Source of the DNA: Candidatus Endonucleibacter bathymodioli
Lineage (GTDB): Bacteria; Pseudomonadota; Gammaproteobacteria; Pseudomonadales; Endozoicomonadaceae
Length of the DNA: 64,000 bases
Direction: 5' to 3'
Assembly (NCBI GenBank): GCA_030674915.1
Contig: JASXSV010000005.1
Coordinates: forward strand, 124,001-188,000
Below are positions 6,500 through 64,000 of the stretch, piece after piece (positions within the stretch are counted from its first letter, which is position 1; every line of letters begins with the position of its first letter). Below the pieces are notes generated by a model that worked only from the letters and a program-made list of their open reading frames with translations, ran no database searches and was not told the origin of the DNA. The position numbers and the translations under genes were made by a program.

Positions 6500-6623
6500 A
6501 CCCCAAGGCATTAAGTTTTAACTATTTACAATAGCTATGAAGCCTATACATAACCGACCAAGGGATAATACTTCTTAACTACAGTAAAGGCAAGAAAATA
6601 TAAAGTAGCCTATTCCTTCTTTC
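4819..6623. repeat. Long direct repeat, copy 2 (partner 1-1803)
   Basis: Partner of the repeat at the left edge. It is close to identical apart from scattered substitutions, a divergent patch around 4976-5055, and in-frame indels (one CAA unit and the 9-bp duplication at the gene start). It ends at 6623, 20 bp before an IS5-end remnant. Confidence 0.9.
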
Positions 6624-37170: not shown

Positions 37171-37215
37171 TTCAAAGCCATTTTAGTAAATAATTGTAAC
37201 TTTTTATGGATTTCC

Positions 37216-37878: not shown

Positions 37879-38196
37879 AGGTTGTAAAATGTAAGGTAAT
37901 CAATCATAACGGTACTTTTATTTTGAGTAACTATTGTCTAGTATAACAAAAGCACCACGGTTGGGTTTTTTAAATAAATAAATAATATTCTATTTTACAG
38001 GAAAAAGGAAAAAGCCTAAGTTATTATGGTGTAGTATGTAATGGTCAGTTTCTGGATTTCAATAGCCGAATGAACTATTGGCAACTTGCGCACTGAGTGG
38101 CGGGATAAATTATTTCATTAGTTTTTTTTATGAGGTAACTTTAGCTGAGAGTTTAAAAAGATAATTAGAAGTTACTGCTTTATTTAAAAAATAAAT
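37879..38196. promoter_or_regulatory. Divergent gspC / gspE intergenic region
   Basis: 318 AT-rich bases between the two arms of the secretion cluster. It must hold both promoters. No clear -35/-10 pair or operator palindrome is evident by eye. Confidence 0.4.
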
Positions 38197-39762
38197 ATGG
38201 ATACTGATAATTTTTTATATTTAAGTGAGAAGGATATGCCTTTGACTAGCCTTAAAGAGAATGTGAGTGAAGAGGAGTTATCTGGTATAATGCAGTCTGA
38301 TTTAAGGCTACCATTTCCTTTTGCCAAGCGTCATGGTGTAGTCGTTATCTGGGACGGTTCAGACCCTTTGCTCTACTTTTGTCAACCACCGTCAGCGGAA
38401 ATATTGGCAGAAGTCCGGAGATTTGTTGGACAACCGACAAGGTGCAAATCTGTAAGTGAAGATTCTTTCAACGAAATCGTTTTAACCAGCTATCATAAGG
38501 ATAGTTCTGAGGCACTGCAGGATGCTGCCGGCCTAAGCGGAGACCTTGATCTCAGCAGCATTGCTGATGCGGTGCCAATTACGGAGGATCTTCTAGAGCA
38601 GAGCGACGACGCCCCGGTTATCAGGCTTATCAATGCTCTCTTGACTGAGGCCGTTAAAGAAGGCGCATCTGATATACATATAGAAACTTTTGAAAATAAT
38701 TTGATTGTACGTATTCGTGTTGACGGACTTTTGAAAGAAGTGCTTCAACTGCAACGCATGTTGGCTGCGCTACTGGTCTCTCGCATCAAGGTTATGGCTC
38801 GGCTAGATATTGCAGAAAAGCGCATTCCTCAAGATGGCAGGATTTCTTTGAGAGTTGCGGGCAAAGAAGTAGATGTTAGAGTGTCGACTCTTCCCTCTAG
38901 TAATGGTGAGCGGGTCGTTTTGCGACTACTTGACAAGGCATCTGGTCGTCTTGACCTTGAGCACTTGGGTATGGCCCCAGAGGACAAAGAGCGTATTGAA
39001 AGATTATTGACTAAATCCTATGGCATTATTTTGGTTACAGGCCCCACAGGATCTGGTAAAACAACATCATTGTACGCATGTTTGAGCGCCCTTAATGACA
39101 AATGCAGAAATATTTTGACGGTGGAGGATCCTATCGAGTACAACCTTCAGGGGATTGGGCAAACTCAGGTAAACACTAAAGTCGATATGACTTTTGCAAG
39201 AGGATTGAGAGCTATCCTCCGTCAAGATCCAGATGTCGTTATGGTAGGAGAAATACGAGATAAGGAAACGGCTGAAATTGCAGTTCAGGCTAGCTTGACA
39301 GGGCATCTAGTTCTGTCTACCTTGCATACTAATACTGCAGTAGGGGCTCTAACTCGCTTGCAGGATATGGGTATTGAGAGTTTTTTATTAGCGTCAAGCT
39401 TGCTTGGGGTAATTGCTCAACGCTTGGTGCGAGTACTCTGTGATCATTGCAAAGAGTCATTTGAACCGGATGAAGCCGAGTGTGCGCAACTGAGTATTAA
39501 CTCTGCTACTCGCCATATTATTTATCGAGCAAAAGGTTGCAAGGAATGTAATTTCAACGGATATAAGGGTCGTACTGGCATTTATGAAGTACTTATTGTT
39601 GATGAAGATATTCGTAAAATGATTCATAGCGGCCAAGGAGAGCAAGCTGTTACTACCTATGTCAGGAATTATAATACTGGCATCAGATGTGATGGTGCCC
39701 GCAAGGTGCTTGACGGAGTGACAACCTTGGAGGAAGTGCTGAGAGTGACTCAAGGAGACTGA
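38197..39762 (+). CDS. gspE: Type II secretion ATPase GspE
   Basis: 521 residues. N1E region (about 1-130), then the secretion-ATPase core: Walker A GPTGSGKTTSLYA (about 282-294), Asp box VEDPIEYNLQGIGQTQVN, Walker B MVGEIRDKETAE, His box GHLVLSTLHTN, and a tetracysteine zinc site CDHC...CKEC (about 422-455) typical of GspE. Powers assembly of the pseudopilus from the cytoplasmic face, bound to GspL. Poor ribosome-binding sequence before the ATG. First gene of gspEFGHIJKLM. Confidence 0.95.
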   Translation: MDTDNFLYLSEKDMPLTSLKENVSEEELSGIMQSDLRLPFPFAKRHGVVVIWDGSDPLLYFCQPPSAEILAEVRRFVGQPTRCKSVSEDSFNEIVLTSYHKDSSEALQDAAGLSGDLDLSSIADAVPITEDLLEQSDDAPVIRLINALLTEAVKEGASDIHIETFENNLIVRIRVDGLLKEVLQLQRMLAALLVSRIKVMARLDIAEKRIPQDGRISLRVAGKEVDVRVSTLPSSNGERVVLRLLDKASGRLDLEHLGMAPEDKERIERLLTKSYGIILVTGPTGSGKTTSLYACLSALNDKCRNILTVEDPIEYNLQGIGQTQVNTKVDMTFARGLRAILRQDPDVVMVGEIRDKETAEIAVQASLTGHLVLSTLHTNTAVGALTRLQDMGIESFLLASSLLGVIAQRLVRVLCDHCKESFEPDEAECAQLSINSATRHIIYRAKGCKECNFNGYKGRTGIYEVLIVDEDIRKMIHSGQGEQAVTTYVRNYNTGIRCDGARKVLDGVTTLEEVLRVTQGD

Positions 39763-39798
39763 TACTAATGAAAGTAATGAACGTAATGAGATAGTATT

Positions 39799-41010
39799 AT
39801 GGCTGCATTTGAATACACTGCTATAGATCAGCAGGGTAAACAGCATAAAGGTTCTTTGGAGGCAGACAGTAGCCGTCAAGTTAGGCAATTGCTTCGCGAT
39901 AAATCATTAACACCTCTTAGTGTTGATGTAGTAAAAGAACAGAAAAAGGGCGACGGGCTTGGTCTTTTTAGACGCGGTGTTTCGGCAGTTGAGCTAGCGA
40001 CTTTGACTCGACAGCTGGCAACTCTTATTCAAGCCTCTATGCCTATTGAAGAGGCTTTGCAGGGGGTTGCTGCACATCAAGAAAAAAGTCGCCTTAAAAA
40101 TATGCTAATAGCTATTCGCTCAAGGGTTGTGGAGGGCTGCACCCTAGCTCGAAGCCTTGACGCCTTCCCCCAAGCCTTCCCTCAAATGTATCGAGCAACG
40201 GTTGCCGCAGGAGAGCATGCTGGTCATCTTGACAAGGTATTGAACCGTTTAGCTGATTATACCGAAGCTCGGATGCAGTCAATGCAGAGGGTTCAGCAAG
40301 CATTACTTTATCCAGTAATTCTGATGCTTGCTTCACTGGGCATTGTCAGCTTTTTACTGGGCTATGTTGTACCTGATATTGTTAAGGTTTTTGTGGATAC
40401 GGGGCAGGATCTACCAATGATAACCGTGATTCTTATCTCCACAAGCGAGGGTTTTCAGAGTTGGTGGCCAGTGATTATAGTAGGTATTGTTATAACTGTG
40501 ATGGCGGTGAAATACTTACTTAAACGACCGGAAGTCAGGTTGGCATGGGATGGCTATCTTTTAAAACTACCTTTGATTGGGCGCTTTAGTCGTACTCTTA
40601 ACGCAGCTAGATTCGCCAGCACGCTAAGCATTCTAACCCGAAGTGGGGTGTCTCTTGTTGAGGCACTAGCGATTGCTGGACAGGTGGTGAGCAATGAGGC
40701 TATTAAGCTGGCCATTAAAAATGTAGCCAAGATGGTCAGTGAAGGTACCAGCCTGAATCGCTCTCTGAGTGAAACAGGGCACTTCCCACCGATGATGCTA
40801 CATATGATTGCCAGTGGCGAATCCAGCGGTGAGCTGGATGAAATGCTAGATAAAACAGCAGTAAATCAACAACAAGAACTTGATGGTAGGCTAGCGTTAT
40901 TGATGGGGTTATTTGAACCTTTGATGCTTGTTGTAATGGGTGGTGTCGTCATGGTAATTGTTTTGGCTATACTGTTGCCTATTCTTAATATGAATCAGTT
41001 ACTGAATTAA
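39799..41010 (+). CDS. gspF: Type II secretion platform protein GspF
   Basis: 403 residues, normal length. Two T2SSF repeats (about 70-195 and 275-395), each with the pattern beginning FTRQLATLIQASMPIEEAL or FASTLSILTRSGVSLVEAL, and three membrane helices (about 170-195, 222-240, 370-395). Inner-membrane core of the secretion motor. A 37-bp gap follows gspE and about 300 bp precede gspG. Confidence 0.95.
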   Translation: MAAFEYTAIDQQGKQHKGSLEADSSRQVRQLLRDKSLTPLSVDVVKEQKKGDGLGLFRRGVSAVELATLTRQLATLIQASMPIEEALQGVAAHQEKSRLKNMLIAIRSRVVEGCTLARSLDAFPQAFPQMYRATVAAGEHAGHLDKVLNRLADYTEARMQSMQRVQQALLYPVILMLASLGIVSFLLGYVVPDIVKVFVDTGQDLPMITVILISTSEGFQSWWPVIIVGIVITVMAVKYLLKRPEVRLAWDGYLLKLPLIGRFSRTLNAARFASTLSILTRSGVSLVEALAIAGQVVSNEAIKLAIKNVAKMVSEGTSLNRSLSETGHFPPMMLHMIASGESSGELDEMLDKTAVNQQQELDGRLALLMGLFEPLMLVVMGGVVMVIVLAILLPILNMNQLLN

Positions 41011-41309
41011 AACTTAGCTAGAATGAAGATTCTTATAGCAGGCCTATACACTAAGTATCAACTTTACTCTATGAGATAAGAACGGCAGTAAGAACAAAAA
41101 GGACGAAACAAAAAATGGCGAACCACAAAACTTTGCTGATGCCCTGCAAGCATAGAACCAGTCTGCTAAAGAGGTGACGAGATTTTAACGATAAATATGG
41201 CGTTTTTCTTTTATACGACACCTTGATGAAGAATAGCCGCTACATCGGTTTCTCATGAACAGGTCTCTTATTAGGAAAAATGATTTTAATCCAAGCGAGA
41301 ACATTAAAA
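41011..41309. other. Gap between gspF and gspG
   Basis: 300 bp without a gene inside an otherwise tightly packed operon. No terminator seen; could hold a separate promoter for the abundant pseudopilin GspG, but no consensus is visible. Confidence 0.4.
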
Positions 41310-41741
41310 ATGAAAGAGCGCGTCCAAAAGGGCTTTACCCTGATTGAAATCATGATTGTGGTTGTGATACTCGGTATTTTGGCAGCAATGGTTGCTCCAA
41401 AACTACTAAACCGACCTGACCAGGCCAAAATCACAGTGGCTCGTTCGGATATTGGAACTGTTTCTCAAGCGCTTGAGCTTTATCGCCTTGATAATGGTTT
41501 TTATCCGTCCACTGACCAAGGCTTAGAAGCACTTAGTGAAAAGCCAACGATGAGTCCTGAGCCTAGACAGTGGAATCCTGAAGGTTATTTGAAAAAAACA
41601 CCTATGGATCCATGGGGGCGCCCGTACTTGTATATTCAGCCTGGTAATCATGGAAAGTATGATATTTATTCTCTAGGAGTTGATGGGCGAGAAGGAGGAG
41701 ATGAATCTAACTCCATGATTACCAACTGGGATGAGCAATGA
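41310..41741 (+). CDS. gspG: Major pseudopilin GspG
   Basis: 143 residues from MKERVQKG, giving an 8-residue prepilin leader cut before FTLIEIMIVVVILGILAAMV with Glu5. The open frame reaches 41280, but the shorter start fits prepilin leaders. C-terminal GspG signature: YRLDNGFYPSTDQGLEAL, PMDPWGRPYLYIQPG and the calcium-site loop SLGVDGREGGDESNS. Polymerises into the pseudopilus after cleavage by a prepilin peptidase (GspO), not in this window. Confidence 0.95.
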   Translation: MKERVQKGFTLIEIMIVVVILGILAAMVAPKLLNRPDQAKITVARSDIGTVSQALELYRLDNGFYPSTDQGLEALSEKPTMSPEPRQWNPEGYLKKTPMDPWGRPYLYIQPGNHGKYDIYSLGVDGREGGDESNSMITNWDEQ

Positions 41742-42247
41742 GGCGAAAGTGCCATGGATTCACACTAGTAGAAATGTTAGTTGTTGTCCTGATTATTGGC
41801 GTGTTACTGGGTATAACACTTATGACTCCTATGACCGGAAATGCTCATAGGGTTGCCAAGGAACAAGCCACTAGACTTCAACTTCTTTTTTCTCAGGTTC
41901 GGGATAAAGCTCTGCTAGAAAATGCTGAGTTTGGTTTTTCGGTGGACGATGATGGAACATATCGCTGGTGGGTACTCCCACTTGAAGGAAAAAACTGGGT
42001 TATGATTGAGGAGAAGCCCTTTCAGCCGTTCCAGATGCCGGAAAGTTATAACATTGAGCTGGAAACAGGTGAACAAGAAAGTTTTGATTCAAATGAGATT
42101 GATGAAAAAGATCGTCCTTCCGTAGTGTTTTTTTCTGATCGTGAATCAACCCCTTTTAAACTTTCTATAATTCCTGCCAGTGATCAAAAACTATCAGTTA
42201 TTTTGCGCTCGGATGGATTGTCTGATGTTGAAATATCACGCGAGTAG
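41738..42247 (+). CDS. gspH: Minor pseudopilin GspH
   Basis: 169 residues. Leader MRRKCHG followed by FTLVEMLVVVLIIGVLLGI (Glu5 present). Overlaps the gspG stop by 4 bp (ATGA). The C-terminal globular part includes the GspH-like FSVDDDGTYRWWVLP and ends VILRSDGLSDVEI. Adds to the tip or shaft of the pseudopilus. Confidence 0.88.
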   Translation: MRRKCHGFTLVEMLVVVLIIGVLLGITLMTPMTGNAHRVAKEQATRLQLLFSQVRDKALLENAEFGFSVDDDGTYRWWVLPLEGKNWVMIEEKPFQPFQMPESYNIELETGEQESFDSNEIDEKDRPSVVFFSDRESTPFKLSIIPASDQKLSVILRSDGLSDVEISRE

Positions 42248-42650
42248 CCCAGACTCTAAAATGTACGGTTTTACATTAATTGAAGTAATGGTTGCACTGG
42301 CTATTTTTGCGGCGTCTGCAGCCATGCTTATTGTTTCAGACGGGAATAGTATTAGCCAAACTCATCATATGAAGAACAAAGTACTTTCTGTTCAAGTGGC
42401 AGACCAACATTTGAATAAAATCTATACTAGTCAGCGTCGTCTGGAAAATGGCACTAAGGGTCGGATGCAGAAATATGCTGGCTATGATTGGTATGTCCGC
42501 GAGGTCATACGCAATACACGAAAAGAAGGTTTTCAGCAGATTATTGTTGATGTATTTTTGGGTTCTAGTGTTGAGCCCCCTGGTAAGAATGATGTGCCTA
42601 TATTAACACTTACCTCTTACATGAGGAGGTTAAAGAGTGTCCGTCAATAA
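42225..42650 (+). CDS. gspI: Minor pseudopilin GspI
   Basis: About 141 residues. The prepilin cut lies at YG/FTLIEVMVALAIF with Glu5. The frame opens at 42180; the ATG at 42225 (MLKYHASSPDSKMYG) gives a more typical leader and only 23 bp overlap with gspH. GspI family features: VLSVQVADQHLN, GRMQKYAGYDWYVRE. Forms the pseudopilus tip complex with GspJ and GspK. Confidence 0.85.
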   Translation: MLKYHASSPDSKMYGFTLIEVMVALAIFAASAAMLIVSDGNSISQTHHMKNKVLSVQVADQHLNKIYTSQRRLENGTKGRMQKYAGYDWYVREVIRNTRKEGFQQIIVDVFLGSSVEPPGKNDVPILTLTSYMRRLKSVRQ

Positions 42651-43461
42651 AGGTTTTACTCTTCTTGAATTGATGATAGCTATTTTCATTTTTGCAATGA
42701 TCAGTACAGCAGCCTATAAATTGCTAAACTCGGTCACTCATGCCAAGCAGGTTACTGATGGACTGCTCGATAGTTTGGATGAATTACAGAGAAGTTACAT
42801 AACTATAGAGAAGGATTTCTCTCAGATAATTGGCCGCTCCATCAGAGATGAATTTGGCGATAAGCAATCTGCAGTATTAGCTCCATCTAAGCCTGCAACA
42901 CTAGCGACTTATGAAAATGGATATTTGATTGAGTTTACCAGAGCCGGATGGAGAAATCCGCTAGGTCTGATTAGGAGCGACTTGCAGAGAGTGGCATATG
43001 CTCTTGAAGACTCGAAATTGGTTCGTTATTACTGGCCGGTGTTGGATAGGGCGTCAGACCCAGAACTGATCCGACAAATAGTATTGCATAATGTGCTAGG
43101 TGTTAAAATCAGACTTATGGATGAAAAAAAAGTATGGAAATCCTCTTGGCCTCCAGCCACCAAACAAAAAGAAGGGGATGATAAAAATGATAGGCTAGAT
43201 AGGACGGATAGGAAGGATAGGAAGGATAGGAAGGATAGGAATGGTAGGAAGGACGAAAATAGCAAGGAAGAGCACCAATCTCCTATGCTTATGCCTGCAG
43301 GAGTAGAAATAGCCATTCAGCATGATACTTACGGATTGTTGGAGTTTTCGTATCCACTTATAACCATAAAGTCTGCTAGCACTGAAGTGGAGAGTAACAG
43401 CGGTTGGGGTATAGGAGATAAAGCAAGGCAATCAAGAAACAGTGGTGAGGGGGAGTATTGA
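42637..43461 (+). CDS. gspJ: Minor pseudopilin GspJ with an Asp/Arg/Lys-repeat insertion
   Basis: 274 residues; relatives are nearer 200-230. GTG start, short leader MSVNKG then FTLLELMIAIFIFAMIS with Glu5. The family block FTRAGWRNPLGLIRSDLQRVAYAL is intact. Between about residues 180 and 215 there is a charged low-complexity insertion (DRKDRKDRKDR type) encoded by 9-bp tandem repeats, with the C-terminal strands resuming at MPAGVEIAIQ. The insertion presumably forms a surface loop. Overlaps gspI by 14 bp and shares its stop with the TTG start of gspK. Confidence 0.9.
   Translation: MSVNKGFTLLELMIAIFIFAMISTAAYKLLNSVTHAKQVTDGLLDSLDELQRSYITIEKDFSQIIGRSIRDEFGDKQSAVLAPSKPATLATYENGYLIEFTRAGWRNPLGLIRSDLQRVAYALEDSKLVRYYWPVLDRASDPELIRQIVLHNVLGVKIRLMDEKKVWKSSWPPATKQKEGDDKNDRLDRTDRKDRKDRKDRNGRKDENSKEEHQSPMLMPAGVEIAIQHDTYGLLEFSYPLITIKSASTEVESNSGWGIGDKARQSRNSGEGEY
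43190..43250 (+). repeat. 9-bp tandem repeat in gspJ
   Basis: Units close to 'ggaaggata', three perfect plus degenerate flanking copies, encoding Asp-Arg-Lys steps. In frame, so copy-number change lengthens a loop rather than killing the gene. Confidence 0.85.
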
Positions 43462-44468
43462 GCAGAAATAGTAAGTATTCTCAGTCTGTTTGTCGCTATC
43501 AGCAAGGGGTAGCGTTGATTTATGTATTGCTCATTTTTTCAATGATGTCGCTTATGGCTAGCCAGATGGTAACAACTTTATTGTTACATACGGAAAAAAA
43601 TGCACGATTTATCGAGAGAATTCAAGCAAGGCATTATGCCTTGGGGGCAGAGCAGTATGTCGCTTATCTATTGGAAGAAGATTTTGTGGAAGACAAGAAG
43701 AAAAAAAGATTCGTTGACCATGAGAATGAGCGTTGGAATATTAGGAAAGTGGACTACGATGTAGATCAGGGCAGTATTGACTTAGTTGTGGTTGATGAGC
43801 AAGGTCGATTTAATATTAACTGGCTTACATCTGAGGGGAAAACAGGGGAAAAGTTCATGTCAATATTTAAAAACTTACTACAGAATCAGGACATAAATGT
43901 TGAGTTGGCAGACTGGATTCAGACTTGGTTGGGAGCGGCTCCTGACGCCGCTAAGGGGGAAGCCGCAGATAACATTTATCTAATGCTTGATCCTCCTCGG
44001 CGTGCGGCGAATACAGAAATAGCTTCGGTTTCTGAGATAAAATTAGTCGAAGGTATGACATCTGAATACTTTGAGCGTTTGGCACCACTGGTGTCAGCAC
44101 TACCGAAGACCTCGAAGATCAATGTAAACACAGCATTGCCAGAAGTTATTCGTTCTATTTCCGATAAAATAACCGAAGACGATGCTGAGGCAATAATCGA
44201 GGGGAGAGGTCTTGATGGATTTGCAAAAATTGACGAACTTAGCAATGTTACTGAAGTTATAGATAAAATGGCAGATTTAAAATCAGCGAAACTGGTGTTT
44301 TCTAGCCAGTATTTTTCTACTTATATTAAAGCTACTTATCGCGACACATCCTTTTATATGAAAACCTTATTATTTCGTAATAATGAAGGACAAGTGCAGA
44401 TAGCGGGAAGAGAAATCGGCCCGAATAGTTATTGGCTTACAGATAAAAAGGCACCTGAGGCAAACTGA
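43458..44468 (+). CDS. gspK: Minor pseudopilin GspK
   Basis: 336 residues. TTG start in the TTGA overlap with gspJ. The leader ends QQG before VALIYVLLIFSMMSLMASQM; position 5 is not Glu, as usual for GspK. The large helical domain is intact, with DEQGRFNINWL near the first calcium region and the helix-hairpin-helix-like block KINVNTALPEVIRSISDKITEDDAEAI. Caps the pseudopilus tip. Confidence 0.92.
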   Translation: MSRNSKYSQSVCRYQQGVALIYVLLIFSMMSLMASQMVTTLLLHTEKNARFIERIQARHYALGAEQYVAYLLEEDFVEDKKKKRFVDHENERWNIRKVDYDVDQGSIDLVVVDEQGRFNINWLTSEGKTGEKFMSIFKNLLQNQDINVELADWIQTWLGAAPDAAKGEAADNIYLMLDPPRRAANTEIASVSEIKLVEGMTSEYFERLAPLVSALPKTSKINVNTALPEVIRSISDKITEDDAEAIIEGRGLDGFAKIDELSNVTEVIDKMADLKSAKLVFSSQYFSTYIKATYRDTSFYMKTLLFRNNEGQVQIAGREIGPNSYWLTDKKAPEAN

Positions 44469-45856
44469 TGAAAGATATTTTGCTGGTTCGGATATTACCT
44501 GACACAGCGTCACTGGATCTTGGATGCAAAGTTCAATGGGGCATTTTTTCCGAAGCTGGCGAACTGTCCGGGGAAGTGCGCGTATCAGAATTGGGACAGC
44601 TCAAGAATGAGTGGTGCATGTTGAAGGAAGGGGTGGGTATAGATACGAAAATAAACGCAGATAAAAAAAATGATACTGACAAAATAATCCTGCTATTACC
44701 TGGTAATTTGACTGTTAATCGCCAATTGGTGCTTACCAAGGGACAAAAAAAACATATTGTGACTGCTTTACCCTATTTGATAGAAGAAGACCTAGCTGTG
44801 GATGTAGAGAACGTTCATTTTGCTAGCGTCTTGCACCGAAAAGAAGATACTGTTTCGTTGATTGCTATTTCCCATGAAAGTATCCAAACTATCCTTGCCA
44901 TTTTTGATGAAGCTTGCTTGCCACCAGACCAAATTTATTCAGAATGCCAGTTGGTAAACTCAGTCCCTGAAACAATATCTCTGGTTTTGGATAGTTCCAC
45001 AGTAATGATGGCTAGACCTGGGTATGCAACACAGGCCCTGGAGTATGAGACAGTACCATTTGCATTAAATCAACGCACTGCAACACTAGAAGATACTACA
45101 GTAGAGATTGAACAGATTTCGCAGGTGGTATTGTTATCTCCAAATGCCCCGCTGTCTTCATCTGTGGAACAAAATGAAGCATTAAAAGATGAGTTACGTT
45201 CACAGGGTTGGTTTTTTCAAGAAGAAACTTTGGGTAAAGACTCAGTTTTTGAGTTTTTAGCAGAAGCGTACTTTAAGTTATCTCGCGTATATCTGTTAGC
45301 TGATTTACGCCACGGCCCTTATCAGAGCCTTAGAAAAACCTCACTCATGGTTAAGCGTTGGCGTCCAATTGCTATTGTTGCGGCATGCTGGTTGGTTATT
45401 GGGTTAAGTGTAATTATAGGACAAGGTATTTACTTTGATAAACAGGCTGACCAACTTTGGAATCAGAATGCTGCACTGTACCTAAAAGGCTTCCCTCAAG
45501 ATCGTCAAGTCATCGATGCAAAAGCTCGAAACCAGAGAAGCTTCAATATACAAAAATGGTTAGAAAGGAGGTTAAATTCTAACAAGGAAACGAAGACCGC
45601 AGATAAGCCGTTGCTGCCTCTGCTGCAGGGTGTTTCTGCTATCGTAGCCTCCCAAGGTAAGGAAGCTGCTATAGTGCCACAGGGAATAGAGTTTAGTAAT
45701 GATTCTGGTAATCTGATTTTTGAATTCCAGGCTGCTAGTCTGGAGGCGATTAATAAATTGATGGCTGACCTCAAAGAAGAGGGGTTGCAAACTCGTCTTG
45801 ATACTGCAAATCAGGGAAAAGTCGGTGCCATTGCTCGTATGACTATAACAAGGTGA
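44468..45856 (+). CDS. gspL: Type II secretion protein GspL
   Basis: 462 residues. Actin-like cytosolic domain (about 1-295) that binds GspE, one transmembrane helix (about 302-322, PIAIVAACWLVIGLSVIIGQG) and a ferredoxin-like periplasmic domain (about 375-460). The family blocks LPYLIEEDLAVDVENVHFA and KDELRSQGW are present. Shares a base with the gspK stop. Slightly longer than usual through a linker around 50-75. Confidence 0.9.
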   Translation: MKDILLVRILPDTASLDLGCKVQWGIFSEAGELSGEVRVSELGQLKNEWCMLKEGVGIDTKINADKKNDTDKIILLLPGNLTVNRQLVLTKGQKKHIVTALPYLIEEDLAVDVENVHFASVLHRKEDTVSLIAISHESIQTILAIFDEACLPPDQIYSECQLVNSVPETISLVLDSSTVMMARPGYATQALEYETVPFALNQRTATLEDTTVEIEQISQVVLLSPNAPLSSSVEQNEALKDELRSQGWFFQEETLGKDSVFEFLAEAYFKLSRVYLLADLRHGPYQSLRKTSLMVKRWRPIAIVAACWLVIGLSVIIGQGIYFDKQADQLWNQNAALYLKGFPQDRQVIDAKARNQRSFNIQKWLERRLNSNKETKTADKPLLPLLQGVSAIVASQGKEAAIVPQGIEFSNDSGNLIFEFQAASLEAINKLMADLKEEGLQTRLDTANQGKVGAIARMTITR

Positions 45857-45866
45857 CGGGGAAGTA

Positions 45867-46379
45867 ATGCAAAATATAATATCAACCATTGGGCAAATAG
45901 CGTTAGTTCAACAACTACTGGTTCGTTATGCGCAATTGCCAGTAAGACAGAAGAATACCATTGCGTGGTTGATAGCTGTTATTGTTGCTGTATTATTCTA
46001 TGTATTGCTATTTTCCCCTATTTATGAGTGGTCTGAAAAACAAAGGCGAGACTATGGCGATCAAGTCAATACGACATTATGGATGCAGCAGCATATAACT
46101 AAGTTTAGAGATATAGAAAATAGTAAAAGAAGAGGTGTTGATCAACAAAATTTACCTTCTGTCGTGACTGCTCTCGCTAAGGAGGCGGGTGTAACGATTA
46201 ACCGTATGCAACCGAATAGGAAAGGTATCTCTATTTGGTTAGAAGATGCTGCTTATCAGAAAGTGTTATCTTGGCTAGTCATACTTGAAACGAAACACCA
46301 GGTAGTTGTTCAAAAAATAAAACTTGAGCGTTTTCAAGAAGAAGGAAGGGTCAAAGGATACATACATCTCAGTAGCTAA
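45867..46379 (+). CDS. gspM: Type II secretion protein GspM
   Basis: 170 residues. Single transmembrane helix (about 31-51, AWLIAVIVAVLFYVLLFSPIY), then a coiled stretch and a ferredoxin-like periplasmic domain (VVTALAKEAGVTINRMQ ... VVQKIKLERF). Partner of GspL. Last gene of the cluster; no gspN follows and the prepilin peptidase is elsewhere. Ten bases separate it from gspL. Confidence 0.88.
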   Translation: MQNIISTIGQIALVQQLLVRYAQLPVRQKNTIAWLIAVIVAVLFYVLLFSPIYEWSEKQRRDYGDQVNTTLWMQQHITKFRDIENSKRRGVDQQNLPSVVTALAKEAGVTINRMQPNRKGISIWLEDAAYQKVLSWLVILETKHQVVVQKIKLERFQEEGRVKGYIHLSS

Positions 46380-49742: not shown

Positions 49743-50942
49743 GAGACCTTTGCACGATAACGCTGCATAAGCCCCACTATTAATTAAATTGTATTTTTTT
49801 GAGGATAAAGCCTTAAAAAACACAATTACAGTTCGAATATGCGCCATTCGAGCCATTTCACCCTTCATTTTCGATTTTCAGACGCAACTTGCCTGCTGAA
49901 TCGATAAACCTCGTTTAATATTGTGCGCCACACACATTATTTCAAAACGTGTACGGTTTCGGCTTAAGCCAAGATAACGAGCTTTCGCCATGCCGTAGTG
50001 TAATTTCAAAACGCCAAATACTCGCTCCACAGTGCAGCGCACGCCAGAATGTAAACGGTTAAAGCACTTATCATGTTCTGTTAATGGTTTATTTCGATAA
50101 GCACGTCTTATTATTCTGTTATCAATATTTCTATCATCCAGCCATTCACTGTGCTTCTTGCTGGAATAGGCACTATCCGCATAAACAGACGACTCTTCAC
50201 CATCTAATAGCTCAGTGAAACAATTTGAATCGTGAATATTTCCTGCTGTGTAACCGATCGATTTTATCAACCCATCCTCATCGACATTTATGTGCGCTTT
50301 ATAGCCGTAGGTACTTTTACTCTTCCCGTCAGAACCTGCTTTCACGTTCCACTTCGCGTCAGGATCCTGTGTTGAGTGCTTGTCTTTATCCTTATTTGGG
50401 CGACACTGTTTAGCCTCAATTACGCTAGCATCAACAATACTGATACCTCCAGATTTAATATAAAGACCTTTATCTATAAGCTGGGAATTGATTTCTTGAA
50501 GCAACTTATCCATAAGCAACAACTTATCGAGCTTCTGTCTAAATCGCCAAAAAGTACTGTGGTCCGGCACTGACTCTGAAATGTCGAGCGCAATAAATCG
50601 ACGAAATAAAAGATCGCGAGCAAGCTGTTTCTCTAGGGCCGAATCGCTTAATTTATACCAACTTTGCAGCAGCAGTGCCTTAAACATCATCAGTGGAGGC
50701 CATGCCTTTTCGCCTCGAGAACTTGAATGTATATCTTTCAGATGATGCTCTAAGCGATCCCAATCAATGAGTTCATGGACAGAGTCGAGTTCTTTCACTG
50801 CATCGTGATCAATCAGCATTGAATCTGCTAGACTGCGTTGTTTCAGATTTTTCCAAGCCATAATTTCACCGAAAGGCATTGATTGTGCAAGGCTTATTAT
50901 ACCTGATTTTCAGTTATTTAGCGAGATTCGTGCAAAGGTCTC
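49743..50942 (-). mobile_element. IS5-family element, intact
   Basis: 1200 bp with 15-bp perfect inverted ends GAGACCTTTGCACGA (49743-49757 and, inverted, 50928-50942), flanked by the direct repeat AATAT (49738-49742, 50943-50947), consistent with target duplication. Carries one complete transposase gene on the minus strand. A second copy starts at 62992 and an end fragment is at 6643-6713. Confidence 0.92.
49878..50879 (-). CDS. IS5-family transposase
   Basis: 333 residues. IS5-type N-terminus (MAWKNLKQRSLADS; this ATG, at 50861, is six codons inside the longest frame), LLLQSWYKLSDSALEKQL, and the DDE triad in SIVDASVIE (first Asp), VYADSAYSSKKH (second Asp) and CTVERVFGVLKLHYGMAKARYLG (Glu). 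Full length and free of stops; the stretch shared with the partial copy at 63055 looks identical, so the element has probably moved recently. Confidence 0.92.
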   Translation of the reverse strand: MPFGEIMAWKNLKQRSLADSMLIDHDAVKELDSVHELIDWDRLEHHLKDIHSSSRGEKAWPPLMMFKALLLQSWYKLSDSALEKQLARDLLFRRFIALDISESVPDHSTFWRFRQKLDKLLLMDKLLQEINSQLIDKGLYIKSGGISIVDASVIEAKQCRPNKDKDKHSTQDPDAKWNVKAGSDGKSKSTYGYKAHINVDEDGLIKSIGYTAGNIHDSNCFTELLDGEESSVYADSAYSSKKHSEWLDDRNIDNRIIRRAYRNKPLTEHDKCFNRLHSGVRCTVERVFGVLKLHYGMAKARYLGLSRNRTRFEIMCVAHNIKRGLSIQQASCV

Positions 50943-56749: not shown

Positions 56750-57214
56750 CTCATCATGAGAACCATCCGACAAGGTGATTATTTATCATCTATCTAAAAG
56801 ATGGTCTCCTGAAACCATGTTTGTCAAACAGGTGGTGCAAATTACGTGCACTCATTCAAAACCATAGAGCATTAAGATAAATACAAAGAAACTCTGGAAT
56901 AACAACCACTTTACAATTACGCCTTCCGCATCAGAGACTAGGGAAACTAGCATTTAGCTGTGATGTAGGGGCATACAAACTACTAACGGTCTGAACTTAC
57001 AGACTACAGACTTAAATTCCCAGCATCCGAAACTGCGAAATAAAACATTTCCTGTTTTTTGCACGAACCAGCATTTTTACTTTATGATAGAACTTTCCCG
57101 GCATTTCTTATGCCATTTTCTTTGTTTTGATTACAGTTATTATCTCATAGAATCAAACGCAGGTTTGCATAAAGCTATCTTCCTACCATTAGAACAACAA
57201 ACCTCAACCATAAC
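56750..57214. other. Convergent intergenic region mmsA / ald
   Basis: No gene recognised. Must contain the transcription ends of both neighbours; no textbook hairpin with a T-run is evident. Confidence 0.45.
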
Positions 57215-58339
57215 TCACCTTAGAGCCGCTACCACTTCTATGGCTGGGGTATACATCAGCCCTTGGGCTTCCGCTACCGGCAAATGGGTAATATTCCCTC
57301 CACATATATTTAAACCCTCTAGTAACTGAGGATTCTCCGTCAAAGCAACTTTACTGCCTTTATCTGCCAATTCAATAATGTAAGGAAGAGCCACATTATT
57401 TAAAGCCATAGTTGCTGTTCTAGCAACTGCACCTGGCATATTAGCAACACAATAATGCACCACGTCATCCACGACAAAAGTCGGATTATCATGAGTCGTT
57501 GGTCTTGATGTTTCCGCACACCCTCCCTGATCAATAGCGACATCAACCAGAACCGATCCAGCTTTCATTGCTTTTATCAACTCCTTCGTAATTAACTTTG
57601 GCGCTGCGGCTCCTGGCAAGAGCACACTACCAATAACCAGGTCACTTTCTATCACATACTCTTTAATGGTTCGAGAGGTTGAATACACTGTTTTAATACA
57701 ATTCCCATGTAGGCGGTCCAGAGCTCGCAGAGCATCCAGAGATCGATCCAATACAGTTACTTCGGCTCCCATACCAATCGCAATAACTGCTGCATTTTGA
57801 CCAACAACACCTCCACCAATAATGACAACCTTGGCAGGCTTAACACCAGGAACACCACCCAATAATATGCCTCTCCCTGACATAGCCTTTTCAAGACACC
57901 TAGCTCCAGCCTGAATAGACATCCTTCCCGCTACTTCAGACATGGGGGCAAGGATCGGCAGTCTCCCCCTAACGTCACTAACAGTCTCATACGCAATACA
58001 AGTTGCTCCTGACTTAAGAAGATCAGAAGTTTGAGGTCTGTCAGGCGCCAAATGCAAAAAGGTAAACAGCGTATGTTTAGATGATAAACGAGCCCGTTCT
58101 TCCGCCAAAGGCTCCTTGACTTTAATAATCAAACAACTCTGATCAAACAACTCATCTGCTGTATCTACAATTTCACCTCCAGCAGCTTCGTAATCACTGT
58201 TGTCAAAACCAACACCTTCACCCGCCAGGTTTTCAATCATTACTTGATGGCCCCTGCTCGTTAGCTCTGCTACTGCATCAGGCGTCAAGCCAACACGAAA
58301 CTCATTGTTTTTGATTTCCTTGGGCACAGCCACTTTCAT
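57215..58339 (-). CDS. ald: Alanine dehydrogenase
   Basis: 374 residues, full length. N-terminal domain starts [20 protein letters not shown] with the substrate-binding Arg15; Lys in [11 protein letters not shown], His in TFLHLAPD, the NAD fold [30 protein letters not shown] (about 170-200), and the [19 protein letters not shown] region. Reversible NAD-dependent deamination of L-alanine to pyruvate and ammonia, feeding amino acid carbon into central metabolism. A GGAGG-like sequence precedes the ATG. Confidence 0.95.
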
Positions 58340-58740
58340 TAGTAGTTTCCTCCTACCAAATTAGCTAATAAACCTGCTAGCAGGCTCCTCTCCTTTATAA
58401 CTAAAACCTAGTTTACACTTAAATTGCCAGCATAAGTAATACACCTTAACCTATACAAACTCAATAGGATTAGGTAGTGTAAGGCTTTTCCCAATCATAT
58501 GTTGATCAGGCGTTTAATCTAATAAATTTCATTGTGCCGCAAACCACTATTTTTCACTATCTCTCACGATGAGGGTAGCCAGCCACGCTTCATTCGGCAA
58601 GATCAGGAACCATATAAATACCCACAATCATCCTGCCTAGGTATCCGCTCAAGAACGGAACGGTGATTCAGAAATTGACCTAATCTAGGCAAAAATCATA
58701 GCTGTGCTATAATACCCATTATCGAGCTGGGGTGTACAAA
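58340..58740. other. Intergenic, no supported gene
   Basis: Upstream of ald. Holds the ald promoter on the minus strand (not resolved). A plus-strand TATAAT near 58708 faces the transposase remnant that follows. Confidence 0.4.
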
Positions 58741-58744
58741 TTAA

Positions 58745-59175
58745 TAACAAGCTGGCCGTCACTGTGACAGAAGCCACTATTGCTTTACTTGAGTACTATC
58801 TGAATGTGCTGCTGATGAGGGCTACCGATAACGGCAAGGTAAGTTCACATAATTACCACTACTTTGGTGAACTGTTGAGTGGTGATGAGTCTCAGTCGAA
58901 TACCAATAGTGCTTATTAGAGTAAAAAGTACACAGAATAGTTATCTGTTCTAGACATCAAAAACCGTCTGACTAAAAGTGTCTACAAAAATTGCCAGTTA
59001 TCAAAATAAGATAAGCAATTTAACCATTTGAACTCAGGTGTTAGCAGCACGATTAAGCGAGTATTGTCTATGCTAAATCAACATCACGATATGGCAAAGG
59101 CTCACTATCGGATTAATACGAAATCGAATGCACTTAGAATTGATGCATATAGCGCACAATATTAAGCAAGTTTAT
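58745..59175 (+). pseudogene. IS5-family transposase remnant
   Basis: Plus-strand reading with four internal stops gives GELLSGDESQSNTNSAY, SKKYTE, LDIKNRLTKSVYKN, FNHLNSGVSSTIKRVLSML and HHDMAKAHYRINTKSNALRI. This aligns in order with TELLDGEESSVYADSAYSSKKHSEW through GMAKARYLGLSRNRTRF of the intact transposase at 49878. The copy is old and comes from a related but distinct IS5 element. Confidence 0.75.
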
Positions 59176-59605
59176 AGATACAGCAGGATACTTGTGCCTT
59201 AATTCTCATATAGGTGAAAAGAGTTATCCTATGATATTCAGTTACGAATAAAAAGGCAATTTTGAGCTGAAAGTCGTTAAAAAACAAACAAATTGTTTGG
59301 AACTAAATCTGGGAAATATCGCAACGGTATCGCTTGATTCTTTTCCTGACAATAAAAACAAGATCTTAACTTAAGTAGCCCTGCTTCTGTTTTACTAGAT
59401 GATACATTTCAAATTTCAATATGCGTTGTATTAATCAAAAAGCGTGCCCCAATTATCTTTAGCATCATGATTATTTCGGCCCCTATCAGGACTACTTACC
59501 GCAGTAAAATTAAAATTCATGACCATCTCCTTAGCATAATGTGTGGGGGCATCTTCTATCATCAATAAAAATTTATAAAAAAAGTTTCGTGATGTTAAAT
59601 TAGGC
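59176..59605. other. AT-rich intergenic before the IAP gene
   Basis: No gene recognised between the IS5 remnant and the promoter of the BIR-RING gene. Confidence 0.45.
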
Positions 59606-59652
59606 TATAATGCTGTGAAGTTAGTTGTAATTAAGTCACACACTATATTGGA
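59606..59652 (+). promoter_or_regulatory. Putative -10 and ribosome-binding site of the IAP gene
   Basis: Perfect TATAAT at 59606-59611, about 52 bases before the ATG; no convincing -35 at 16-18 bp. GGAG at 59650-59653 sits about 10 bases before the ATG. The gene therefore has bacterial expression signals. Confidence 0.45.
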
Positions 59653-59663
59653 GTATATTAACC

Positions 59664-62054
59664 ATGAAAAGAGCCTTGTCAAAAATGATGTTTTATGCTT
59701 TCATCATTTTCTTTATTCCTCAACGAGGAATGGCTATGCTAGACTCCATAGATAAAAATATGCCAGATCACTGGGTGCCAATTAATAAGAATATCAAGAT
59801 AATAGTGCCAATAACTCTACCTGAAAGTGAGATTGGTACGATGGTTGATCTTAAAGTGGAAAATTCAGTTACGGATGGCCTTACGGAACTACATAGATTT
59901 GTATATGGAGATAGTGAGAATCAAGAGGAAATCCAGAAGACGGAATTAAGTAAAAAAATTGATACAATTAACAAGGATAATAAATATCCGGTAATAGTGA
60001 ACAGCATTGATAATGAGAAATACTGTCACTTAGTTATTAAACAACCAGACCAAGAGTGTTTAGAACTATATACTATTAACACTAAACTAATGAAAAGTTT
60101 TGCCTGTGCGCAAAACACATTATCATCAAAAGAAATACTCCCACCTATTACGCTGAAAAAAAATATAATAGCTGAGGATAGGGCCGATGATTTGTTTGAT
60201 ATCAAACATTGCTCAAAAGAGCTATTAGAAAAGTATCATACTCCTTTGATAGAAAACAATAAAGATACATGTTTCATATTATACATCTCATGCCATATGA
60301 AAGAAACTGGTGCTAATGATGATTCCTGCCCTTTATATGCAGCCTTTTTATTTATAAAGAAAAACTCTGATTCGCTGGAGTCTTTTTGTAGACTAAATAT
60401 ACAAGATGAAAGTGATGACATTGATGAAGATGGTGGGCCAGAAGAAGGTGAGCCAGAAGAAGTTGATACGCTATATAGTCAGCAAGTGTCTAAAACTACT
60501 ATAGATATATTCCAGAATGGTACGATAAGGCTTAACTGTGGTGGTTCATGCAATATTGAATGCAAACAGTCTCCGTCCATACAAGCAGCCTGGTGGGATT
60601 ATACTATGAATCACATAAAGACATATGAGTATAAGTCCTGTTTTATTGATCACAATTCAAATAAGCCGTATGCTTTCGCAGTTTATATGTCCATGAATCA
60701 TATGATTACCGTTCAGAATTGCAAACAAATCCTTGAGCGTCCACCAAATACTGCCGTATTGTCCGAAATAACCGGTGAAAAAATTTCTGACATAGCACAG
60801 GCGACACAGGCGATCCTAGATATTGCAACAAAGGAAGCACCCAAAAGAGTAGCTAATACGGAAGCGGAAGCCCAAAGATTAGCTAATGCGGAAGCGGAAG
60901 CCCAAAGATTAGCTAATGCGAAAGCGGAAGCCCAAAGATTAGCTAATGCGAAAGCGGAAGCCCAAAGATTAGCTAATGCGGAAGCGGAAGAAGCCCAAAA
61001 ATTAGCTAATGCGAAAGCGGAAGCCCAAAGATTAGCTAATGAGCAGGCCAGCATACAAACTGAACAGATGCAAAATACTGCAAATTCGGCAGAAAGAGTT
61101 ACTGCAGAGAATCGTGCACCAGCTAGATACCCAGAATATGCAACATATCAGAATAGGCTTAACAGTTATGATAACTGGCCTCGGCAGCAGACACAGAATC
61201 GAGAAGGTTTAGCGAAAGCTGGGTATTTCTATACGGGAAACACAGACGTTGTTCGGTGCTTTTGCTGTGATCTTGGATTGGCGGAGTGGGATAGCGCTGA
61301 CTGCCCTTGGCGAGAGCATGCCAGACATGCCACGAAGTGTTGGTTTTTGCAACAAGAAAAAGGGTCGCGGTATATCAGCGAGATAAAAAATAAGTGGAAA
61401 GAAGTATATAGTCCAAAGAGTGAGAATTTCGAGCATCTGCAGAGTAGACTTGATACATTTAATGGGGTGTGGAGAGCAGATATTACACAAACACCACAAA
61501 TGTTAGCAGATGCTGGATTTTACTACACCGGAGAAGAGGATACAGTCCGTTGTCATTATTGTGATGGGGGCTTGCGATATTGGGAACCAAACGATATTCC
61601 CTGGGAACAGCACGCAGAATTCTTCGGATATTGCAAGTTTTTAATAAAAATGCAAGGTCGAGATTATATCGAGAGTATCAAGAATGCAGCTAGACAAAGA
61701 CAACTTGCAGAACATGAGGGAAATCAACAGGAACAACAGATCACAGGAGGAAGTAGAGCCAACTCATCAGAAACTGCGTCCTCATCGGCAAAGATATGGA
61801 GGGTACAGACTGAACCAGTTGAAGCTCAGGCTGAAGCTCAGGCTCCAAATAAACAACAACTACTGCAAGAAAACAAGAAGTTAAAAGAAGCTATGAAGTG
61901 CATCGAGTGCAAAGACAAAACAGCGGTTATGCTATTTAAGGAATGTGGACACAGGGTGCTGTGTGAACCATGCAGCAATAATGTGAAGAATTGCCCTGTC
62001 CCTAAATGTAATAAAAAGATAAAAAAACAACCGGTAAAAACCTATTTATCGTAG
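59664..62054 (+). CDS. Secreted BIR-BIR-RING inhibitor-of-apoptosis-like protein
   Basis: 796 residues. A signal peptide (about 1-25, MMFYAFIIFFIPQRGMA) opens it. A 370-residue Cys-containing region of unknown family with an acidic patch (DDIDEDGGPEEGEPEE, near 252-267) follows, then seven AEAQRLAN-type repeats (about 396-460), probably a long helix. Next come two BIR domains: BIR1 at about 485-560 and BIR2 at about 587-662, each with the exact zinc pattern CX2CX16HX6C, and BIR2 with GLRYWEPNDIPWEQHA as in animal IAPs. Last is a C-terminal RING (about 745-790) with CIEC, CGH, CEPC and a final pair spaced CX4C instead of CX2C, ending VKTYLS like animal IAPs (VRTFLS). IAPs bind caspases and act as E3 ubiquitin ligases. 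No such domain set is native to bacteria, so transfer from an animal host is inferred. Activity is untested. Confidence 0.93.
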   Translation: MKRALSKMMFYAFIIFFIPQRGMAMLDSIDKNMPDHWVPINKNIKIIVPITLPESEIGTMVDLKVENSVTDGLTELHRFVYGDSENQEEIQKTELSKKIDTINKDNKYPVIVNSIDNEKYCHLVIKQPDQECLELYTINTKLMKSFACAQNTLSSKEILPPITLKKNIIAEDRADDLFDIKHCSKELLEKYHTPLIENNKDTCFILYISCHMKETGANDDSCPLYAAFLFIKKNSDSLESFCRLNIQDESDDIDEDGGPEEGEPEEVDTLYSQQVSKTTIDIFQNGTIRLNCGGSCNIECKQSPSIQAAWWDYTMNHIKTYEYKSCFIDHNSNKPYAFAVYMSMNHMITVQNCKQILERPPNTAVLSEITGEKISDIAQATQAILDIATKEAPKRVANTEAEAQRLANAEAEAQRLANAKAEAQRLANAKAEAQRLANAEAEEAQKLANAKAEAQRLANEQASIQTEQMQNTANSAERVTAENRAPARYPEYATYQNRLNSYDNWPRQQTQNREGLAKAGYFYTGNTDVVRCFCCDLGLAEWDSADCPWREHARHATKCWFLQQEKGSRYISEIKNKWKEVYSPKSENFEHLQSRLDTFNGVWRADITQTPQMLADAGFYYTGEEDTVRCHYCDGGLRYWEPNDIPWEQHAEFFGYCKFLIKMQGRDYIESIKNAARQRQLAEHEGNQQEQQITGGSRANSSETASSSAKIWRVQTEPVEAQAEAQAPNKQQLLQENKKLKEAMKCIECKDKTAVMLFKECGHRVLCEPCSNNVKNCPVPKCNKKIKKQPVKTYLS
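60850..61045 (+). repeat. 24-bp tandem repeat in the IAP gene
   Basis: About seven or eight units of 'gcggaagcccaaagattagctaat' type, each encoding AEAQRLAN, with one 3-bp insertion (an extra Glu/Ala). High identity between units suggests recent expansion. Confidence 0.9.
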
Positions 62055-62991: not shown

Positions 62992-64000
62992 GAGACCTTT
63001 GCACGAATCTCGCTAAATAACTGAAAATCAGGTATAATAAGCCTTGCACAATCAATGCCTTTCGGTGAAATTATGGCTTGGAAAAATCTGAAACAACGCA
63101 GTCTAGCAGATTCAATGCTGATTGATCACGATGCAGTGAAAGAACTCGACTCTGTCCATGAACTCATTGATTGGGATCGCTTAGAGCATCATCTGAAAGA
63201 TATACATTCAAGTTCTCGAGGCGAAAAGGCATGGCCTCCACTGATGATGTTTAAGGCACTGCTGCTGCAAAGTTGGTATAAATTAAGCGATTCGGCCCTA
63301 GAGAAACAACTTGCTCGCGATCTTTTATTTCGTCGATTTATTGCGCTCGACATTTCAGAGTCAGTGCCGGACCACAGTACTTTTTGGCGATTTAGACAGA
63401 AGCTCGATAAGTTGTTGCTTATGGATAAGTTGCTTCAAGAAATCAATTCCCAGCTTATAGATAAAGGTCTTTATATTAAATCTGGAGGTATCAGTATTGT
63501 TGATGCTAGCGTAATTGAGGCTAAACAGTGTCGCCCAAATAAGGATAAAGACAAGCACTCAACACAGGATCCTGACGCGAAGTGGAACGTGAAAGCAGGT
63601 TCTGACGGGAAGAGTAAAAGTACCTACGGCTATAAAGCGCACATAAATGTCGATGAGGATGGGTTGATAAAATCGATCGGTTACACAGCAGGAAATATTC
63701 ACGATTCAAATTGTTTCACTGAGCTATTAGATGGTGAAGAGTCGTCTGTTTATGCGGATAGTGCTTATTCCAGCAAGAAGCACAGTGAATGGCTGGATGA
63801 TAGAAATATTGATAACAGAATAATAAGACGTGCTTATCGAAATAAACCATTAACAGAACATGATAAGTGCTTTAACCGTTTACATTCTGGCGTGCGCTGC
63901 ACTGTGGAGCGAGTATTTGGCGTTTTGAAATTACACTACGGCATGGCGAAAGCTCGTTATCTTGGCTTAAGCCGAAATCGCACACGTTTTGAAATAATGT
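62992..64000 (+). mobile_element. IS5-family element, second copy (right part outside window)
   Basis: Begins with the terminal repeat GAGACCTTTGCACGA and continues identically, in opposite orientation, to the element at 49743-50942 as far as compared by eye. It is cut by the window edge. The target repeat cannot be checked. Confidence 0.9.
63055..64000 (+). CDS. IS5-family transposase (partial)
   Basis: Same protein as at 49878-50879 (starts MPFGEIMAWKNLKQ), running off the window after the catalytic Glu block (CTVERVFGVLKLHYGMAKARYLG). The frame is open throughout the visible part. The alternative start is the MAWKNL ATG at 63073. Confidence 0.92.
   Translation, partial: MPFGEIMAWKNLKQRSLADSMLIDHDAVKELDSVHELIDWDRLEHHLKDIHSSSRGEKAWPPLMMFKALLLQSWYKLSDSALEKQLARDLLFRRFIALDISESVPDHSTFWRFRQKLDKLLLMDKLLQEINSQLIDKGLYIKSGGISIVDASVIEAKQCRPNKDKDKHSTQDPDAKWNVKAGSDGKSKSTYGYKAHINVDEDGLIKSIGYTAGNIHDSNCFTELLDGEESSVYADSAYSSKKHSEWLDDRNIDNRIIRRAYRNKPLTEHDKCFNRLHSGVRCTVERVFGVLKLHYGMAKARYLGLSRNRTRFEIM

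Follow-up and report, generated by a model that had tools for sequence, protein, structure and literature searches.

An intact open reading frame (ORF) at positions 59664-62054 (+) of a stretch of Candidatus Endonucleibacter bathymodioli DNA encodes a protein of 796 amino acids in which an inhibitor-of-apoptosis protein (IAP) of a mussel type, with two BIR domains and a RING finger, is joined to a leader of the bacterium's own genus. The whole stretch, called the window here, comprises 64,000 nucleotides (GenBank assembly GCA_030674915.1, contig JASXSV010000005.1, positions 124,001 to 188,000 of the forward strand), and the genus, a member of the family Endozoicomonadaceae, is written Endonucleobacter in what follows. 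The fusion protein is probably exported into the host nucleus, where its BIRs would act on caspases or their regulators and its RING on ubiquitin. For a wider reading the scales are evenly balanced: the protein would belong to a plug-in effector system in which a constant, genus-specific leader exports host-stolen IAPs, RING-ankyrin ligases and J-proteins, recombination at a helical hinge attaches the payloads, and strong positive selection diversifies them against a matching set of host caspases and further targets. The genome nearest to the window is the metagenome-assembled genome (MAG) 'Ca. Endonucleobacter sp. (ex Gigantidas childressi)' JASXSU01, referred to as E. childressi or G001, the loci of which are given by contig (C1, C2, C3) and position.

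The fusion protein and the origin of its BIR-RING half

The gene consists, in order, of a leader, a chassis, two BIRs and a RING, beginning with ATG at 59664 and ending with the stop codon at 62052-62054, and GGAG at 59650-59653 reads as its ribosome-binding site. Three full-length E. childressi IAPs resemble its product over the whole length, with 67-72% identity. Residues 1-24 (59664-59735, +) are predicted from hydropathy and sequence to form a Sec signal peptide, in agreement with a first-pass annotation made from the DNA alone: a charged start is followed by a hydrophobic core (Kyte-Doolittle mean 2.8 at residues 10-18), and cleavage is likely after the GMA motif, possibly after residue 24. 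The motif reads QRGMA in 17 of 18 rows and QQGVA in P0006 and P0007, two 'Ca. Endonucleobacter bathymodioli' proteins that match the front half. The leader domain proper, domain A (residues 25-250; 59736-60413, +), is followed by an acidic linker (residues 251-269; 60414-60470, +) with a 15-bp repeat at 60426-60466, by the Cys/His-rich domain B (residues 270-392; 60471-60839, +), possibly a small zinc finger, and by a hinge of AEAQRLAN-type repeats (60844-61041, +), for which Tandem Repeats Finder gives a 30-bp repeat in 6.5 copies. The first-pass annotation had described a large unknown domain and a helical repeat here; the former is indeed unknown to Pfam, yet it is made up of two domains, A (about 25-250) and B (about 270-392), and not of one, while the latter holds as a repeat, coded by the 30-bp tandem unit. 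The acidic linker, at the A/B junction, also contains DxxD-type words resembling caspase sites, which are only partly common to the paralogues and which an acidic composition could easily produce.

The back half is that of an animal IAP. Pfam recognizes the BIR (PF00653) in two stretches (E 6e-40, 136 bits against a cut-off of 22.9), BIR1 at residues 497-562 (61152-61349, +; outer limits set by eye) and BIR2 at residues 595-660 (61446-61643, +), and the zinc ligation CX2CX16HX6C claimed at first pass is borne out at all eight ligand positions (C532, C535, H552 and C559; C630, C633, H650 and C657). The C3HC4 RING finger (residues 743-788; 61890-62027, +) was found by the motif list and by Pfam (PF13920, E 9e-8, 32.2 bits against a cut-off of 27), but its last ligand pair (ligands 7 and 8, 61992-62009) is C-x4-C (CPVPKC) instead of the usual C-x2-C, a spacing seen in four of the 39 proteins compared, namely the window protein and its three E. 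childressi relatives. The motif list also places the C-terminal tail VKTYLS at 62034-62051 (+), as the earlier annotation had it; tails of this type are those of animal IAP RINGs, where they have a role in RING dimerisation. In the PDB, sequence alignment puts BIR2 closest to the BIRs of NAIP and BIRC2, and at the positions which we take to line the type II BIR peptide-binding groove of the BIRC2/BIRC4 construct 3uw4, GGLR.W and D are kept, E is changed to Q and W to F; several of these positions vary among the paralogues. The remainder of the protein outside the BIRs and the RING matches no Pfam family. As regards a polymorphic toxin system, which would have a toxin C-terminus and an adjacent immunity gene, no toxin domain was found in the protein by Pfam, and no ORF of at least 100 amino acids lies between 62055 and 63054.

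A protein search with residues 484-796 gave 43 matches, of which five were from Endonucleobacter (the window's own protein included) and 38 from elsewhere; those 38 comprised bivalve proteins and one chicken protein among the named ones, together with 11 without a name. Eleven Mytilus proteins show 43-46% identity over 98-100% of these residues, and Mytilus IAPs rank first among the matches from other genera (46%, E 3e-100). In a 42-row tree, which took in 30 of the 38 non-Endonucleobacter matches and three loci of other family genomes, the window protein groups with its three E. childressi relatives in a single clade (100/100), and this clade is nested among rows from bivalves, from Endonucleobacter and without a name (98/98). 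The node shared with Mytilus (94/84) is not starred. In a 38-row tree, from which four long-branch rows were left out, the seven domain-B carriers stand together (80/86, not starred), a clade of the six domain-A carriers alone is not rejected (p value of the approximately unbiased test, p-AU, 0.28), and a single clade of all eight Endonucleobacter IAPs is rejected (p-AU 3e-62). These results fit, without proving it, one capture behind the chassis with domain B and at least one separate capture. Searches and trees thus show the BIR-RING half to be of a mussel type and of mollusc affinity, as the proposal of a captured animal IAP had implied. The Mytilus BIRC-type IAPs have the same type of BIR and a RING with a KTYLS or KTFLS tail; unlike the window protein, however, they have N-terminal regions of their own without a match to the half made up of signal peptide, A and B, and their RING lacks the C-x4-C pair.

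Two other accounts of this half have to be weighed. Contamination with mussel DNA or a false assembly join, which the likeness of the BIR-RING half to a mussel protein might bring to mind, was considered and rejected, and it hardly deserves any credence: the gene is a single intact ORF in bacterial style with a ribosome-binding site, its neighbours are bacterial, the contig is 198,352 bp long, a second MAG, assembled separately, has the same layout on contigs measuring 0.74 and 1.36 Mb, the guanine + cytosine content of the gene is 0.394 against 0.402 for the window, and the E. childressi assembly graph was checked by the authors of PMC11521996. It is also quite unlikely that the IAP came through a mollusc virus and not directly from a mussel. 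In the main text of PMC11521996, malacoherpesvirus IAPs fall between the bacterial and the mollusc ones and viruses are one of three possible routes, and intron-free coding would be compatible with a virus or with mRNA; nevertheless, the nearest named relatives are mussel proteins, and no relative of domain A turned up in the viral contigs scanned with it (the BIR half was not searched there).

BIR domains occur in 14 of the 37 genomes of the family. A small one of 2.6 Mb (G006) has eight BIR matches, with frames up to 1190 amino acids, and one protein has a signal-like start; this is perhaps another host-restricted lineage.

The shared leader and its back halves

Residues 1-390 of the window protein match 17 places in G001, one of them partial, and the same 17 places are recovered by a 14-row profile of domain A (set A2 consists of 13 of the 17 places and the window; sets A1 and A3 are without P0010). 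Domain A and the front half are absent from the 36 other genomes of the family that were searched. Among 390 genomes of the order, domain A matched G001 and one 72-residue stretch, the latter being outside the genus and rejected as a chance match (E 0.003, four stops). Protein searches with residues 26-390 and with residues 1-250 of an E. childressi relative returned Endonucleobacter proteins only (six besides the window's own, and 10, respectively), and among the IAPs fetched the best non-Endonucleobacter match to the front half was 44 residues of an unnamed protein (E 0.044). The leader domain thus appears, so far, to be confined to Endonucleobacter, and the proposed fusion to a bacterial module stands. 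In all 18 aligned rows domain A lies directly after the signal peptide, at the extreme N-terminus.

Behind this leader four kinds of back half were found: BIR-BIR-RING, RING-H2 with ankyrin repeats, ankyrin repeats, and DnaJ. Ten of the 17 domain-A ORFs were searched with Pfam directly, and six more were judged by precomputed Pfam results or by whole-length similarity. The members with RING-H2 and ankyrin repeats lie mostly within one tandem array (C1:1269150-1301259), which contains ten leader copies, of which one is partial and one stands in a short frame with another after it; five array members have both parts by Pfam, and the short C1:1269150 has no match above cut-off. Elsewhere, C3:14210-16867 has ankyrin repeats and a RING match below cut-off, C2:494223 has the leader and then ankyrin repeats, C2:268507 matches DnaJ over positions 18-56 of 63 with the HPD motif present, and C3:290135 has the leader with two BIRs and a RING. 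E. childressi has seven BIR + RING ORFs, four found by the domain scans made here and three by precomputed Pfam, and domain A precedes the BIRs in four of them. Domain B is found in the domain-A IAPs and in an ankyrin chimera described below; moreover, C3:914890-917004 lacks domain A but has a weak match to domain B (E 3e-6 against P0006 and 0.07-0.6 against the window protein).

The ankyrin member C2:494223-497219 is shown by comparison of its protein and DNA to be a two-parent chimera, with both parental genes identified. Its protein resembles those of IAP type up to residue 403, with about 82% identity; from there on, residues 404-998 share 90.6% identity with residues 453-1047 of the ankyrin protein C2:487998-491144, the gene of which lies 3 kb away on the same strand. 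At the DNA level the first part, together with the stretch upstream, is 92-93% identical to the IAP gene, and the second part is 95.6% identical to the ankyrin gene through and beyond the stop codon. Between the two parental matches there remain 12 to 47 bases, depending on whether the IAP gene of the window or that of E. childressi is used, and this junction lies at the place matching the hinge.

The fold of the front half was approached by prediction. Two AlphaFold2 jobs with 16-row alignments gave a mean predicted local distance difference test score (pLDDT) of 41.6 and 35.2 and no usable model of domain A, while in the first model the block means for domain B were 53-83. Foldseek returned 39 matches to this first front-half model, none with E < 0.6 and none for domain B, and PDB sequence searches with the front half and with domain A separately gave no match. 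APAF1_C, which Pfam matches in five of the 14 domain-A members (best E 8e-4; in the window member E 0.07 and 13.5 bits against a cut-off of 22.8), was rejected as the identity of domain A: the match covers about 50 residues only, and a helical domain is not what the strands of the low-confidence models suggest.

Further front parts are found among related proteins. P0007 (496 amino acids) has the same front half, has no Pfam domain and stops near the start of BIR1, so it is apparently a broken IAP. L053 (G001 C2:115468-119262) is a protein of 1264 amino acids with six BIRs and no RING in Pfam, and with the 292-residue L003 (C2:492505-493383) it shares another leader, unlike the first (59% along 257 residues). 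Two further IAPs, G001 C1:1266701-1268917 and C1:1332322-1336542, have a front part of yet a third kind in common (49%, 653 residues).

Selection on the leader and on the parts behind it

A codon model of the Goldman-Yang type with F3x4 frequencies was written for the analysis and applied to the window gene and its three E. childressi relatives, the hinge being left out. The ratio of nonsynonymous to synonymous divergence (dN/dS, omega) is 1.04 for the signal peptide and domain A (p 0.92 against 1), 3.15 for domain B (p 0.003), 2.10 for the BIR region (p 0.0004) and 3.26 for the linker and RING (p 0.005). Taken jointly and again without the hinge, the 425 codons from B to the RING give omega 2.46 with a likelihood ratio (LR) of 29.7 and p 5e-8. 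The control genes ald and mms gave 0.245 and 0.077 under the codon model, and 13 further control genes 0.05-0.35 (three of the 16 tried had no relative in the stretch). By simple counts, dN exceeds dS in six of six pairs both for domain B and for the BIR region. The zinc ligands of the BIRs are kept in all four proteins compared, and their surroundings vary.

The tandem array was treated in the same way. Eight genes, compared in all 28 pairings, have pN/pS 0.81 in domain A and 1.14 in the RING; the value is 1.35 in the stretch after the RING and 1.95 in the ankyrin part. The codon model gave omega 0.55-1.10 for the signal peptide and domain A in six of seven within-array pairs, no significant pair for the RING, and 1.49-4.72 for the ankyrin part behind the RING in the seven pairs, with p < 0.05 in six. 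In addition, the DNA of the paralogues C2:480483 and C3:575327 is 98-100% identical before the BIRs where it could be aligned, 78-88% across them and 93-97% after them, so the flanks look homogenised while the BIRs remain apart.

Several observations weigh against this pattern. The simple counts give less support than the codon model: a one-sided p < 0.05 is reached in two of six pairs for domain B and in three of six for the BIR region, and dN is not greater than dS for the BIR1 core in one pair, for the RING in one and for the hinge in three. Within the array, one domain-A pair has omega 3.46 (p 0.048) and one ankyrin pair is not significant (p 0.14), and the pair with an out-of-array gene has 0.60 for the signal peptide and domain A and 0.78 for the ankyrin part. 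Furthermore, the codon model was applied here to eight of the 28 possible pairs, and as these pairs share sequences their p-values are not independent. On balance, the model fits show dN/dS above 1 behind domain A and not within domain A. This excess over hundreds of codons marks the parts that are likely to be in conflict with the host, and the concentration of amino-acid changes behind the leader suggests an arms race. The whole may be read as a constant leader with exchangeable, diversifying effector parts.

Surroundings of the gene, export and significance

In the upstream region (59291-59663, +), compared by blastn and by sequence, positions 59291-59635 are about 95% identical to the stretches upstream of the three E. 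childressi relatives. About 29 bp before the ATG (59635), these relatives have 1.07-1.15 kb of extra DNA that is absent from the window (G001 C2:479386-480453, C3:569514-570594 and C3:574144-575297), with transposase-like ORFs, recognized by homology to other copies, in two of the three. The window comes from an Endonucleobacter other than E. childressi, probably that of Bathymodiolus puteoserpentis (E. puteoserpentis), and PMC11521996 gives 84.3% identity for these two species. In the segment from ald to the IAP gene (56788-59635), however, the identity with E. childressi contig 2 is 94-96%, also across the non-coding parts; the mean dS of the 13 control genes is 0.445 against 0.077 for ald and 0.067 for domain A, which suggests a recent exchange of this segment between the species. 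Elsewhere in the window, two secreted-looking proteins with 94.8% mutual identity are encoded at 2-1678 and 4628-6511 (-), and their first 560 residues are 46-48% identical to E. childressi proteins of 1474 and 1493 amino acids. An ORF of 333 amino acids, which we take to be transposase-like, is present in two copies, at 49878-50879 (-) and at 63055-63999 (+); the latter, about 1 kb downstream of the IAP gene, is interrupted by the end of the window. A cluster of type II secretion genes lies at 35026-46379, where NCBIfam recognizes gspD, E, F, G, H, I, J, K and L above cut-off and gspC below it, and 45867-46379 is, from its position, presumably gspM; all 11 genes have relatives in E. childressi.

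The following path may be proposed for the fusion protein. The predicted signal peptide would take it through Sec, domain A would be a constant part kept for handling or export, and the type II system of the same window is a likely candidate for the second export step. In the host nucleus, the BIRs would capture caspases or regulators of caspases for ubiquitylation by the RING, and the parts behind the leader would be exchanged and altered, keeping pace with changing host targets. Some points tell against such a path. The zinc-binding domains would need to cross the oxidising periplasm, and domain A could be host-facing instead of an export handle. In addition, translocon genes of a type III secretion system (T3SS) are listed in PMC11521996, so type II is not the sole route. 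The same paper places these bacteria in the nucleus and reports the expression of the seven E. childressi IAPs and of host caspase-2 during infection.

Three alternatives bear on this proposal. Domain A might be a host-facing effector or docking part, for instance with a nuclear protein or one of the ubiquitin pathway as its ligand; in that case the signal peptide alone would serve for export and the fusions would equip various catalytic or binding parts with one common docking part. This is possible but on the unlikely side: about 225 residues are long for an export signal, most members have a RING-H2 or Cys/His-rich part behind domain A, and the fold was not recovered by the two AlphaFold2 jobs, but domain A lacks the dN/dS excess seen behind it and is placed right after the signal peptide in every aligned row. 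Export might also take a different route (through type III, by outer-membrane vesicles or by lysis when the infection ends), and the type II genes would then be ordinary equipment; this is doubtful to a similar degree. It would accord with the translocon genes just mentioned, with a chitinase bearing a T3SS signal that is listed in the same paper (PMC11521996) and with type II genes that are perhaps mere neighbours of the IAP gene; the Sec signals reported there for all seven E. childressi IAPs, however, fit type II better than type III. Finally, fast divergence might reflect decay or relaxed constraint in redundant copies and not selection, as broken or shortened relatives (P0007 and the short array members) and a domain-A omega of about 1, also readable as weak constraint, would allow. 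This is improbable, because relaxation brings omega to 1 and not to 2-3 with the LR obtained, and the BIR zinc ligands are retained amid varying surroundings.

Host-derived IAPs with a Sec signal are already known from the genus. PMC11521996 reports IAPs of host origin, as the first-pass annotation had stated, with 13 in E. puteoserpentis and seven in E. childressi, the latter number being equal to the count of BIR + RING proteins obtained here. Like the window protein, these IAPs have BIR and RING domains and are host-derived, and they occur in multiple copies per genome; a Sec signal, reported there for all seven of E. childressi, is predicted in the window protein. IAP domains in coral Endozoicomonas were noted in 2022 (PMC9743535), and a 2025 review restates the Endonucleobacter finding (PMC12491435). 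The main text of PMC11521996 names only BIR and RING in its IAPs and has no occurrence of ankyrin, type II secretion, T2SS, fusion, recombination or positive selection, and neither the leader nor the swap of payloads was found in print in a literature search that included portions of PMC11521996, PMC9743535, PMC13286007, PMC12491435 and PMC4257569. The novelty expected of the fusion therefore does not extend to the captured IAP alone, which is published, but it holds, within the literature covered, for the front half, which is no one-off. A comparable case is the terminal reassortment of type III effectors (Stavrinides et al. 2006, cited in PMC4257569), where a constant N-terminal part is likewise combined with varied C-terminal effector parts; here, in contrast, a Sec-type signal is followed by a 225-residue domain of one genus, the payloads include host-derived genes, and the dN/dS excess is on the payload side. 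The ankyrin effectors of Legionella (NCBIfam T4SS_Ank) are also ankyrin-repeat proteins of an intracellular bacterium, and the repeat matches here are far below the cut-off of that family; unlike them, the present proteins have a Sec-type signal peptide and domain A, with RING-H2 in the array members.

It had been published that the parasite took apoptosis blockers from its host (PMC11521996), and the present analysis concerns how such genes may become usable in a bacterium. The IAPs sit behind a leader that also bears quite different eukaryote-like domains, and a chimera with both of its parents in one neighbourhood shows how a payload can be attached. The general question of how host genes become bacterial effectors is thereby turned into specific tests on named genes.

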